Assembly: GCA_022072085.1 (NCBI GenBank)
Contig: JAJVII010000060.1
Span: forward strand, 1-64,000
Reading direction: 5' to 3'
DNA from: Phycisphaerae bacterium
GTDB lineage: Bacteria > Planctomycetota > Phycisphaerae > JAJVII01
DNA length: 64,000 nt
Within the stretch, counting starts at the first letter, position 1; every line of letters begins with the position of its first letter. This document shows positions 17,921-46,666 of this stretch, piece after piece. The notes under the pieces are model-generated. The model searched no databases, was not told where the DNA came from, and saw only the letters and a program-made list of their open reading frames with translations. The translations under genes were made by a program, and so were the position numbers.

Positions 17921-17971
17921 GGGCGGCGCCCGTCGGGGGATTTACGCCCCGGCTCATCGGGGCGGGCATCA

Positions 17972-18046
17972 TGGGCAGCCTGGCCGTCCCGGGCGTGCCG
18001 GGACCCAGCGCTTTGCGTCTCCACCTTACGATGGAGTTGCCTTTTT
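17972..18046 (-). promoter_or_regulatory. GEMM-I (c-di-GMP-I class) riboswitch upstream of pilM
   Basis: Minus-strand RNA has all GEMM-I landmarks in order: GGCAAC (18043-18038), a stem CUCCAUC/GGUGGAG closed by a GUAA tetraloop of the GNRA type, the invariant GACGCAAAGC (18019-18010), a second stem GGGUCCC...GGGAC, and GGCCAGGCUGCC, whose UGCC pairs with the first GGCA. The base that I align with position 20 of the Vibrio Vc2 aptamer is G, which favours c-di-GMP over 3,3-cGAMP, though this alignment was made by eye. It precedes a terminator and the pilMNO operon. The family is established; whether ligand turns genes on or off cannot be read. Confidence 0.9.
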
Positions 18047-18067
18047 CCATCTCAGCCTTCCGCGCCA

Positions 18068-43373: not shown

Positions 43374-43897
43374 GCCTGTTCCGTACGAGCAGCAACAGGC
43401 TATCAGTTTATCCGCCCGCAAGCCATACCCGTCGAGTATGCCTTCAGTGAAAACGCGAAGTCATGAACGCAGAGGAAGAGCATCTTTGATAATTCAGTTC
43501 GCCGCTGAGGCGCAGAGACGCTGAGGGAAAGGACTTGGTTCAGAACGGGCGTCGGAAGTGATCGAAAGACTCAAACGCAACGCCTTCTATAGACCATTGT
43601 CCCTCTGCGACTCAGCGCCTCAGCGGCTAATTATGAACAGTCCTCGGGTACAGAGGCGGGGACAGAGGCATTCATCTCTCAAAGAATTCAAGACTCTGTC
43701 GGACCTCTGCCACTCATCCGCTCTGCGTTTGATCCGGTCGCCTGGACTTTGCGATTGCCCTGAGTATGCCTCGGGGAATCCTGACATTTCTGCCGGATTT
43801 CGCTCAATCGGGTCTGTCCCATAACCGATGCAAATCGACGGCTGGACGCGCAACCGGGACTGGGGAAGGCCCCGGCGACCCCAACGGGAGACAGGCC
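43374..43897. other. Intergenic region with imperfect inverted repeat
   Basis: About 524 bases without a convincing gene. It holds an inverted repeat (43501-43528 with 43600-43627, described separately). Related words such as AACGCAGAGGAAG (43467-43479) lie nearby. A GGGAG ribosome site at 43885-43889 precedes the TTG start of the next gene. No clear promoter was found. Confidence 0.6.
43501..43627. repeat. Inverted repeat of the GCTGAGGCGCAGAGACGC type
   Basis: Arms of 28 bases (43501-43528 and 43600-43627) match at 25 positions when one is reversed; the loop is 71 bases. The word family (ccgctgaggcgcagagacgctgag) recurs as an intergenic element in many planctomycete genomes, as far as I recall. 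It may be a mobile palindromic element or a structured RNA. Confidence 0.8.
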
Positions 43898-44896
43898 TTG
43901 AACGCGACACGAAACGGACACTTCGGTCTTGTCGCCGCGTGCTGGGCGATCTTGCTGCTGACGGCTGCGCCGACAGCCGCCGACACGTTCAGCATCGACG
44001 CTGCTTCGCCGTCGGCTGGTGCGTCGCTGCTGCCGGGCAGCGTGCTGGCGTTCGGCCCGACCACGCACGTGCCGCAGCAATCGTTCGGACTGGCGATCGG
44101 CGACGAACTGGACGCCCTGTCCGACGGCACCGACATCGGACAGATCATCTTCTTCAGCGTGGGGCGCGGCTCGACCGGGGCGGCCGGGCAGACCGACCTG
44201 TTCACCGTCGGCGGCCAGGCGTTGCGGGGCCAGCAGGCCGGCGACGTCTTCGTCACCGTGACCGCTGACGGCGTGCTCTCGCGACCGGTCGGATACAACC
44301 AGTTGGCGACCGACCAGACGCAATATGGCCTGTCGCCGATCCTGGCGCCGTTCTTCTACAACAGCGGCCCGCTGGACAACCTGGACGCGCTGAACTTCAG
44401 CGAGTTCGACACGCTGCCGGTCGGCGGCGACGGCACGCCCGACCGGGCGATCTTCTTCTCGCTGGCGGCCGGCAGCCCGACGCTGACGACGCTGGGGGCG
44501 TCGGCGGCCGACGTGCTGCTGTGGAACCCGGTCGACTCGACGCTGTCGATCTGGCAGCCGGCGACGACGCTGGGGCTGACTTCCGGGGACGACCTGGACG
44601 CGCTGGCCCTGGGCGTGGTGGCAAACCCCGACGGCAGCTACACGCCGGTGCAGGCGTGGTTCTCGCTGGCGCCGGGCAGCCCGTCGCTGGGCGGCGACTC
44701 GGGGGCCGATATCTTCCACACGACCTTCGGCGGCGACTACTCGCTGCTCTACACGGCCGAGCAACTCGGCCTGTCCGATGCGGACAACGTGGACGCGCTG
44801 GAAATCTCGCCCGTCCCCGAGCCGGCGACGCTGGCATTGCTGCTGGTCGGCGGGGCGTTGGCCATCGGCTTAGCCCGGCGACGCCGCGTCCGCTGA
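43898..44896 (+). CDS. PEP-CTERM protein with repeated acidic beta domain (copy 1)
   Basis: 332 residues from a TTG at 43898 (GGGAG at 43885). Signal peptide: NGHFGLVAACWAILLLTAAPTAA. Repeated modules contain GDELDALSDG, WFSLAPGSPSL, SAADVLLWNP and SDADNVDALEI. The C-terminus is PEP-CTERM: VPEPATLALLLVGGALAIGLARRRRVR. The calcium-type Asp clusters (GDDLDAL, DNVDALE) suggest metal binding but this is inference. It is a paralogue of the gene at 45161. Confidence 0.87.
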   Translation: MNATRNGHFGLVAACWAILLLTAAPTAADTFSIDAASPSAGASLLPGSVLAFGPTTHVPQQSFGLAIGDELDALSDGTDIGQIIFFSVGRGSTGAAGQTDLFTVGGQALRGQQAGDVFVTVTADGVLSRPVGYNQLATDQTQYGLSPILAPFFYNSGPLDNLDALNFSEFDTLPVGGDGTPDRAIFFSLAAGSPTLTTLGASAADVLLWNPVDSTLSIWQPATTLGLTSGDDLDALALGVVANPDGSYTPVQAWFSLAPGSPSLGGDSGADIFHTTFGGDYSLLYTAEQLGLSDADNVDALEISPVPEPATLALLLVGGALAIGLARRRRVR

Positions 44897-45160: not shown

Positions 45161-46222
45161 ATGTCTCGGACTCTTGACGCCCTTCGGGCGGCCGGCGGTA
45201 GCCTTGTACTTGCACTGGCAGTCCTGCTGATCCCCGCGACGCTTTCGGCTGGCACGTTCGCCACGTTCTCGATCGACAGCGGCTCGACCACCGCGCGGTC
45301 GGGGGCGGCGATCCTCTCGCCCGGGACGGCTGTGCCGGTTCACCTGACGCCGTCGGCGATCGGCCTGACGAGCGGCGACGAACTGGACGCCCTCTCCGAC
45401 GGGCAGGACGCCGGGAACGTGGTCTACTTCTCGGTCGATCGCGTGTCGGTCGGGCAGAATCTCGGCTACGGGTTCAGCTACGGATTCCTGACCATCTACG
45501 ACCAGCATGCCCTCGGCCACGCGGCCGCCGATCTCTACGTCACGACCAACGCCGTCTACGCCGGGTCCGCGCCGCCGTCGGTCGGGAGCGGCCTGCACAT
45601 CCTCGACGGCTTCGGACCGTCGGGCAACCAGGCGGCGTTCGGCCTGTATCCGACCAGCGGATATGCTTCGAAATATACGGGCGGCAGCCCCATCGACAAC
45701 ATCGACGCGATGAACTTTACTGACTTCGACATCAGCCCGGTCGGCGGCGACGGGGTGGCCGATCGGCCGGCCTTCTTCTCGCTGGGCGCCGGCTCGCCGA
45801 CGCTGGGTTCGCTGAGCGCGGGGGCCGCCGACGTGCTGGTCTGGACGCCGGGGGGCGGGCTGAGCATCCTGGCGACGGCGGCGCAGGTGGGGCTGACGGC
45901 CGGCGACGACATCGACGCAATGGCCCTGGTCACGTCGGGCCTGCCGGGCACGCCCACGCCGGTGGGGCTCTGGTTCTCGCTGGCCCCGGGCAGCCCGTCA
46001 CTGGGCGGCGACTCGGCGGCCGACATCTTCTTCTCTCGCTTCGACGGCAGCTACTCGGTGCTCTACACAGCCGAGTCGCTGGGCCTGCTGAACAGCGACA
46101 ACGTGGACGCCCTGGAACTTCAGCCGCTGCTGACCGTGACGCCCGAGCCGGCGACGCTTGCGCTGCTGGCGTTGGGCGGCGTCGGGGCGGCGATCGGCCT
46201 GCGGCGACGGCGACGAAGGTGA
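45161..46222 (+). CDS. PEP-CTERM protein with repeated acidic beta domain (copy 2)
   Basis: 353 residues; ATG at 45161 after GAGGAGAGAG. Signal peptide to about residue 30 (LVLALAVLLIPATLSAG). The modules match copy 1 closely: IGLTSGDELDALSDGQD, FFSLGAGSPTLGSLSAGAADVLVW, VGLTAGDDIDAMAL, WFSLAPGSPSLGGDSAADIFFSRFDGSYSVLYTAESLGL. C-terminal signal TPEPATLALLALGG, helix, then LRRRRRR. It differs from copy 1 mainly in the region around residues 95-170. A terminator-type hairpin lies 38 bases after the stop. Confidence 0.88.
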   Translation: MSRTLDALRAAGGSLVLALAVLLIPATLSAGTFATFSIDSGSTTARSGAAILSPGTAVPVHLTPSAIGLTSGDELDALSDGQDAGNVVYFSVDRVSVGQNLGYGFSYGFLTIYDQHALGHAAADLYVTTNAVYAGSAPPSVGSGLHILDGFGPSGNQAAFGLYPTSGYASKYTGGSPIDNIDAMNFTDFDISPVGGDGVADRPAFFSLGAGSPTLGSLSAGAADVLVWTPGGGLSILATAAQVGLTAGDDIDAMALVTSGLPGTPTPVGLWFSLAPGSPSLGGDSAADIFFSRFDGSYSVLYTAESLGLLNSDNVDALELQPLLTVTPEPATLALLALGGVGAAIGLRRRRRR

Positions 46223-46259
46223 TGCCCTGCGGGGAGCCATGGCATGGCGCAGAAAAACA

Positions 46260-46294
46260 CCCGCCGCCTGACGAACCAGGCGGCGGGCTGTTTT
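46260..46294. terminator. Bidirectional intrinsic terminator
   Basis: An 11-bp perfect stem, CCCGCCGCCTG (46260-46270) with CAGGCGGCGGG (46277-46287), loop ACGAAC. On the plus strand CTGTTTT follows and can end the PEP-CTERM transcript; on the minus strand TGTTTTT follows and can end the candidate RNA. Confidence 0.9.
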
Positions 46295-46326
46295 GTGAGG
46301 CTGCCACCAGGCAGCTGCGTGACTGC

Positions 46327-46356
46327 CTAGAGCAGCCCTCCTATGTCATGTAGCAC
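46327..46356 (-). CDS. Possible nine-codon leader peptide with extended ribosome site
   Basis: GTG at 46356, seven bases after AAGGAGG, opens a frame MLHDIGGLL that ends at TAG (46329-46327). The spacing is ideal, and the stop sits at the base of the AGGCAG/CTGCCT hairpin, so a ribosome there would disturb that hairpin. It may be a true peptide or simply chance within an RNA whose role is to bind ribosomes. The Shine-Dalgarno is much longer than the GGAGG-type sites of neighbouring genes. Confidence 0.3.
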   Translation of the reverse strand: MLHDIGGLL

Positions 46357-46637
46357 TGGATCACCTCCTTATTCTGCGGCTGGCCGGGTCGCTCGGGCGT
46401 GCGGCGCGATCGAACGCCATACCCGAGAGGACCGGACCTGCCAGGCTTCCCCAGCCGCCATCCGCGACACGTTTCCGCACGGCGCCGGTCCCGGGTAAAC
46501 GGGATTGGGCCACCGCACTTCCACGCCCGCGAACCGCCGGGCTCCTTTTCCCGGAATCGCCATCCCGGGCCCTGGCCCCGAGCGGGTGATCAGCCTCGCT
46601 CGCGGTCGTCGAATCGCGCTGAGCATTCGACTCTCTT

Positions 46638-46666
46638 ACTCTACACTCTGTCGGCTGATGGGTCAA
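46638..46666 (-). promoter_or_regulatory. Strong promoter of the candidate RNA
   Basis: TTGACC (46666-46661), a 17-base spacer and TAGAGT (46643-46638) on the minus strand, near consensus for sigma-70. Start of transcription expected near 46632. Confidence 0.65.

Follow-up and report, generated by a model that had tools for sequence, protein, structure and literature searches.

tmRNA (SsrA) is a single-copy structured RNA, similar in size to the RNA described here, which engages the ribosome with a short built-in reading frame, has tRNA-like ends and acts by trans-translation. Dual-function small RNAs such as SgrS/SgrT are free-standing transcripts with an ORF, a promoter and an intrinsic terminator. 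In the TnaC and trp-leader attenuators, a short ORF is followed by a hairpin at the stop codon and by an intrinsic terminator, and minigenes such as lambda bar are very short ORFs that stop within a few codons. The large bacterial RNAs OLE, GOLLD, ROOL and raiA, of recently found or still unassigned function, were discovered by comparison and are free-standing, structured and present in a single copy. The Downstream-peptide/yfr6 RNAs of cyanobacteria place a structured RNA before a short ORF in a transcript of approximately 250 nt (yfr6); their peptides have 17–100 residues and the 5' UTR alone is conserved (PMC2864571). Table 1 of the same publication lists the Rhodopirellula-1 motif, a candidate RNA of Planctomycetes and Proteobacteria from 2010, which is marked there as probably cis-regulatory and carries no Rfam accession in that table (PMC2864571).

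The RNA described here lies on the minus strand of the window (the whole 64,000-nt stretch of Phycisphaerae DNA that was analysed) between positions 46666 and 46253. It is composed of a promoter, a structured 5' domain, a 15-nt complement of 16S rRNA, a GTG start codon, nine codons, a stop-codon hairpin and an intrinsic terminator, in this order (Table 1). The initial annotation had reported a near-consensus promoter and a strong terminator enclosing about 375 bases of structured, non-coding-looking sequence. Both signals are present where they had been placed, and the promoter is the sole promoter-like match within 1.6 kb (mean of 0.1 in shuffled sequences). The terminator stem was called on both strands and could act for the convergent plus-strand gene as well. 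The folding energy of the enclosed RNA is below that of 100 of 100 shuffles, in agreement with the structured character of these bases, and the non-coding look is true of the 5' domain only. A divergent gene with an ARPP-1 domain is located upstream of the RNA and a convergent PEP-CTERM gene downstream. The latter (45161–46222, plus strand), which has the PEP-CTERM Pfam match, is the second of two adjacent similar ORFs with PEP-CTERM-like C termini, the other being at 43766–44896 on the same strand; the pair is an apparent tandem duplication.

Table 1. Features of the minus-strand RNA locus in the window.
Feature	Position	Strand	Remarks
Sigma-70-like promoter TTGACC-17-TAGAGT	46638..46666	-	9/12 match; predicted RNA start ~46631
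Structured 5' domain, ~255 nt	46376..46631	-	Organisation taken from relatives; whole-RNA fold z = -3.8
P4 hairpin CCCGGGA-UGGCGA-UUCCGGG	46550..46569	-	Fits family loop consensus GRYGRCGRYC; assigned in the window copy by motif and position
P5 helix motif, 5' strand: AAAAGGAGCCCGGCGG (AAAGAGYCCGGCGGC in relatives)	46534..46549	-	By inspection
P5 helix motif, 3' strand: GGATGGCGGCTGGGGAAGCCT (GCGACGGCTGGG in relatives)	46443..46463	-	By inspection
Lineage-specific extra 8-bp helix, GCGGCTGG (46458-46451) with CCAGCCGC (46383-46376)	46376..46458	-	Complementarity
Super Shine-Dalgarno AAGGAGGTGATCCAG	46356..46370	-	15 contiguous Watson-Crick pairs with 16S 3' tail
Micro-ORF GTG CTA CAT GAC ATA GGA GGG CTG CTC TAG	46327..46356	-	9 codons, MLHDIGGLL
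P6 hairpin, stop codon in 5' arm, ACG in loop	46299..46337	-	Fold of window copy and relatives
Intrinsic terminator GCCCGCCGCCTGGTTCGTCAGGCGGCGGGTGTTTTT	46253..46288	-	13 pairs at 46288-46259 and T tail

Homologues were found well beyond close strains, across the window's class and two other classes of Planctomycetota, whereas the initial annotation had regarded confinement to close strains as a sign against the candidate. When 60 relatives were searched at the DNA level, the Shine-Dalgarno (SD)-ORF-hairpin region was matched in one genome of the same family (G001) and one of another family (G044). A pattern search of 298 genomes of the class gave 27 matches, of which 15 are clear members and the remainder are without the hairpin. 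The covariance model R1, which describes the 75-nt SD-ORF-hairpin region, matches 106 of 397 genomes of the window's class (E <= 0.01), approximately 92 of them with at least 30 bits; the weaker matches are partly due to chance, such as L149, which lies where a long ORF begins. The wider model R2, with the window's class as its training set, matches 79 of 297 genomes there (E <= 0.001), 48 of 149 genomes in another class of the phylum (E <= 0.01) and two genomes in a third class; because of this training, absence elsewhere is not readable as loss. Besides L153, 19 loci of the other class were inspected and all have the same layout. Where present, the RNA has a single sense copy in the genome. 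It occurs in roughly one in four genomes sampled from the window's class (Phycisphaerae-like) and in two other classes, a distribution that is a sample of the phylum and whose counts, drawn from related sequences, overstate the independent evidence. Every named record with the strict pattern is a MAG from Planctomycetota, in most cases from Phycisphaerae. A phage or mobile origin was rejected, as viral contigs gave no match to the strict pattern.

In most relatives, a TTGA(C)-(16–18)-TANANT promoter is located approximately 185–200 nt upstream of GAGG, and a promoter score of at least 9 is reached in 37 of 89 loci, compared with 2.3% of shuffles. The RNAs of the family, estimated from promoter to terminator, are mostly 280–390 nt long, and those of the other class are nearer to 200 nt by inspection. 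An all-against-all comparison of the flanking ORFs of the 89 loci identified no neighbour gene that is conserved beyond subclades, which indicates that the RNA gene is free-standing. Neighbours are shared within subclades only, for example one divergent upstream gene common to 11 loci. In a single genome, a cobalamin riboswitch (L124, 784–1019, plus strand) lies about 200 nt downstream of the family RNA.

The 16S gene of the same genome (L158, confirmed with Rfam) ends in ...CGGCTGGATCACCTCCTTTCT; AAGGAGGTGATCCAG is therefore complementary to the organism's own rRNA. The site had been described as matching the last 15 bases of 16S rRNA. The 15-nt complement is indeed perfect, though it ends approximately one base short of the presumed mature 3' end. 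The final G of the 15-mer also opens the GTG start codon. As proposed, the match is longer than any other in the window: the next-best site in the 64 kb carries two mismatches, and the other sites have at most 8 contiguous complementary bases including GGAGG. With G-U pairs counted, the relatives can form a median of 15 contiguous pairs with the 16S tail. Judged by this pairing potential, the SD complementarity is far beyond normal need, ranks among the strongest that a ribosome-binding site can have, and is retained across the family. Its predicted accessibility is moderate only, with a mean unpaired probability of 0.37 for the SD and 0.31 for the 5' domain. An anti-SD in the 5' domain that would mask the site, hinted at by CTGATCACC at 46593, was rejected as a conserved feature, because the longest complement to the SD in the 5' domain averages 7.25 over 79 RNAs and 7.2 in shuffles. 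In L092, L110, L126, L162 and their relatives, the base of P6 (roughly +13 to +20 of the ORF) contains a second SD-like stretch, GAGGTGG, at a normal SD distance from the stop codon; it is not present in other families.

The nine-codon reading frame with a stop at a hairpin is likewise present as proposed. All 88 inspected loci of the window's class (L149 being left out) contain an NTG start 9–11 nt downstream of the G of GAGGTG, at +10/+11 in almost all cases, and an in-frame stop after 6–14 codons. Among 74 aligned members, which are related and do not provide independent counts, P6 begins at +21, +24 or +27 in 65 and at +22 or +25 in 9. The stop codon starts 7 nt inside P6 in 62 of the 74, 3 nt before P6 in 8 and 10 or 21 nt inside in 4, and therefore occupies one of two fixed places relative to P6 in 70 of the 74; members with a different P6 phase have another in-frame stop. 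In these alignments, the length of the ORF varies mainly in steps of three, keeping the frame. The start codon, the frame and the position of the stop are kept despite this varying length, which supports recruitment of ribosomes to the ORF, and a fixed frame and stop relative to P6 would be hard to explain without translation. The predicted peptides of the window's class follow the patterns MxxxIG[RGWE]L[LP] (the type of the window), M[DE]IGxxxRWL[LPR], M[KQS]GDK[RPQ] and MTNSDCxCGLL, and those of the other class follow MC[SK]xNQ[GRV][RWG]L[ALH] and relatives. The C-terminal part is partly conserved (RWL[LP], GLL, RLP). A tRNA-Ile2/AUA minigene was rejected, since the fixed AUA is partly a product of the initial search pattern and there are covariance-model members without AUA.

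The initial annotation had also asked for compensatory changes in the stems, and these are observed in both P4 and P6. In 34 type-A relatives, P4 has compensatory changes at 9 of 9 pairs, with 50 double-change cells against 11.5 expected from shuffles and far lower values in slid controls. P6 has 96% of its cells paired and changes on both sides at 6 of 11 pairs in the 74-member alignment, which was fitted to the covariance model and leans towards structure. An independent alignment of P6 from the other class also has 96% paired cells, with double changes at 5 of 19 pairs; the double-change cells number 20, compared with 5.4 in shuffles, and the pair count alone is not beyond shuffles (38/500). 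A putative P5 helix, identified by inspection, is directly 5' of the linker and takes the form GGGCAAGGCCCG...CGGGGAG...GCCC or AAAGAGYCCGGCGGC...GCGACGGCTGGG. The 5' domain of the window copy is about 255 nt long, compared with the approximately 190 nt typical of relatives, and contains the extra helix GCGGCTGG/CCAGCCGC, which makes the fold of this copy less certain. This helix, which closes immediately upstream of the docking site and is missing from the sister copy L055, competes with the 3' strand of P5 and could render the window's copy switchable. Of 76 members scored, 67 have ACG in the loop of P6; the P4 loop contains GRCG, and the other class keeps the same ACG-type loop. P4 and P6 both carry an ACG-type loop (GACG or GAACGUG) within covarying stems, a pattern that suggests a repeated recognition element. 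In the f7 family (L115, L133, L136, L138, L140, L142, L147), a T-arm-like hairpin is inserted in the P6 loop, for example CCGCAGG-TGCGATT-CCTGCGG.

Scans with Rfam 15, two permissive ones included, gave no sense-RNA match at the window copy or at 16 homologous loci. The best sense-strand score of the window copy is 20 bits, compared with a gathering threshold of 45, and membership of any Rfam family was rejected because the permissive scans returned chance-level matches only. The locus has no Rfam match to tmRNA (RF00023) and ARAGORN finds nothing there; RNase P RNA (RF00010) and 6S RNA (RF00013) are likewise without a match. A divergent tmRNA, RNase P RNA or 6S RNA was rejected, each being encoded elsewhere in the genome (G000:C32:48996–49347, G000:C17:74816–75231 and G000:C5:39779–39962, respectively). 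The sole Rfam match in the window is a c-di-GMP-I riboswitch aptamer at 17971–18051 on the minus strand (60.4 bits). An Acido-Lenti-1 match of 39 bits was recorded at L110 (4221–4267, minus strand), antisense to the segment immediately 3' of the terminator region, and a similar weak match of 14 bits occurs in the window; these are possibly an effect of the terminator hairpin. No earlier description was found in the open literature searched. Together with the absence of an Rfam match, this agrees with the view of the initial annotation that the element is undescribed, and from its sequence the RNA looks like an undescribed class built for ribosome engagement.

Comparison of the loci establishes a conserved architecture, pairing potential and reading frame in a free-standing gene; from these we infer transcription, translation, the holding of ribosomes and a regulatory role. 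The reading that is tentatively favoured, with close to even prospects, is a trans-acting RNA that holds the ribosome as a titrator, a sensor or a carrier of the 5' domain. The gene, with a promoter and a terminator of its own, would yield a free-standing structured RNA of approximately 200–390 nt in the family, in which the 5' domain folds and is followed by a short linker, a stretch of 13–15 nt that can form a duplex with the 16S 3' tail, and the start codon. About 40 nt, holding the SD and the start codon, separate the end of P5 from the start of P6 (spacing partly by inspection). The footprint of an initiating ribosome is close to 40 nt, and the stretch between the structured parts would be roughly that covered by one such ribosome. 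The ribosome would initiate, read 6–14 codons and reach the stop at the foot of or within P6. Ribosomes leave very long SD duplexes slowly, and the tight SD helix and P6 together would therefore provide highly efficient initiation followed by slow departure, i.e. ribosome retention. The RNA would capture 30S/70S particles as a trans-acting ribosome titrator or sensor, and a protein may read the ACG-loop hairpins P4 and P6. The initial annotation had suggested a ribosome decoy or regulator, a role that we likewise infer. Somewhat more tentatively, this may be an ancestral single-copy RNA of Planctomycetota that holds a ribosome in a ribosome-RNA particle, which either governs how many ribosomes are available or brings the 5' domain to them. 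The moderate predicted accessibility of the SD counts against docking; a strong SD may also just mean high expression, and the partly conserved C terminus of the peptide also fits a functional peptide.

A gene whose product is the 6–14-residue micropeptide, with the 5' domain and the hairpin only securing expression or stability, would agree with the conserved frame, start and stop and with the shared C-terminal patterns NQ[GR][RW]L[ALPH] in the other class and IG[RGWE]L[LP] or RWL[LPR] in the window's class. The peptides nevertheless vary between families (MKGDKR, MTNSDCKCGLL, MLHDIGGLL) and are less alike than the RNA structure; their shared C-terminal codons sit in the P6 stem, so that RNA pairing alone can explain their conservation, and a peptide function is hard to fit into the 6-residue versions, all of which makes this reading distinctly unlikely. 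The constant loops (ACG in P6, GRCG in P4, kept in the other class) surrounded by covarying stems could instead be bound by a protein, with translation of the micro-ORF opening P6 and gating the binding, as in a translation-sensing sponge. No candidate protein was found and the loops could alternatively make RNA tertiary contacts or touch the ribosome; a protein-binding RNA of this kind is therefore unlikely, if slightly less so than a micropeptide gene. The combination of a short ORF, a hairpin over the stop and an intrinsic terminator also recalls a leader peptide or attenuator, in which stalling on the micro-ORF governs readthrough into a downstream gene. This is very improbable, as the genes downstream of the homologues are unrelated and variable in orientation and the next gene in the window is convergent; a role as attenuator or leader of a neighbouring gene was rejected, with no synteny conserved across families in the 89 loci and sharing within subclades only. 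A chance pair of promoter-like and terminator-like sequences around a random SD-like match is already refuted by the homologues in many families, the covariation and the preserved frame, and can practically be dismissed.

If the RNA does hold a ribosome in this way, it would stand beside tmRNA and 6S RNA as a new functional class among bacterial RNAs. If transcribed, it would be a housekeeping-like RNA across much of a bacterial phylum that is missing from Rfam and, within the range searched, from the open literature, and the second RNA, after tmRNA, to be built on a few codons and a stop. Its transcription would also open the question of how translation is regulated, or ribosomes are supplied, in Planctomycetota.

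The comparison with the Rhodopirellula-1 motif is at the level of its table entry, where it differs from the family RNA in being marked as probably cis-regulatory. In the Downstream-peptide/yfr6 RNAs, the conserved part lies upstream of the ORF, whereas the conserved core of the family RNA is the SD, the frame of the ORF and the 3' hairpin. OLE, GOLLD, ROOL and raiA share its mode of discovery and single copy, but the family RNA has no Rfam match and places a ribosome site and a micro-ORF at the centre of its layout. The AUA codon, a minigene-like trait, is frequent in the window's subgroup but is not conserved family-wide, and in contrast to minigenes the micro-ORF is embedded in a large structured RNA. 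The leader-peptide attenuators (TnaC, the trp leader and the Erm leaders) have the same succession of short ORF, stop at a hairpin and terminator; the family RNA differs in having no conserved downstream gene and in its upstream domain with the covarying P4. Unlike SgrS/SgrT, it has just 6–14 codons at a fixed distance from a hairpin, an SD far stronger than usual and a 5' domain that is highly structured and covaries. tmRNA has tRNA-like ends, whereas the family RNA is without these and has an SD-driven start. Measured against Rfam and the limited literature covered, the layout of a super-SD micro-ORF between the structured parts of a free-standing RNA appears to be new.
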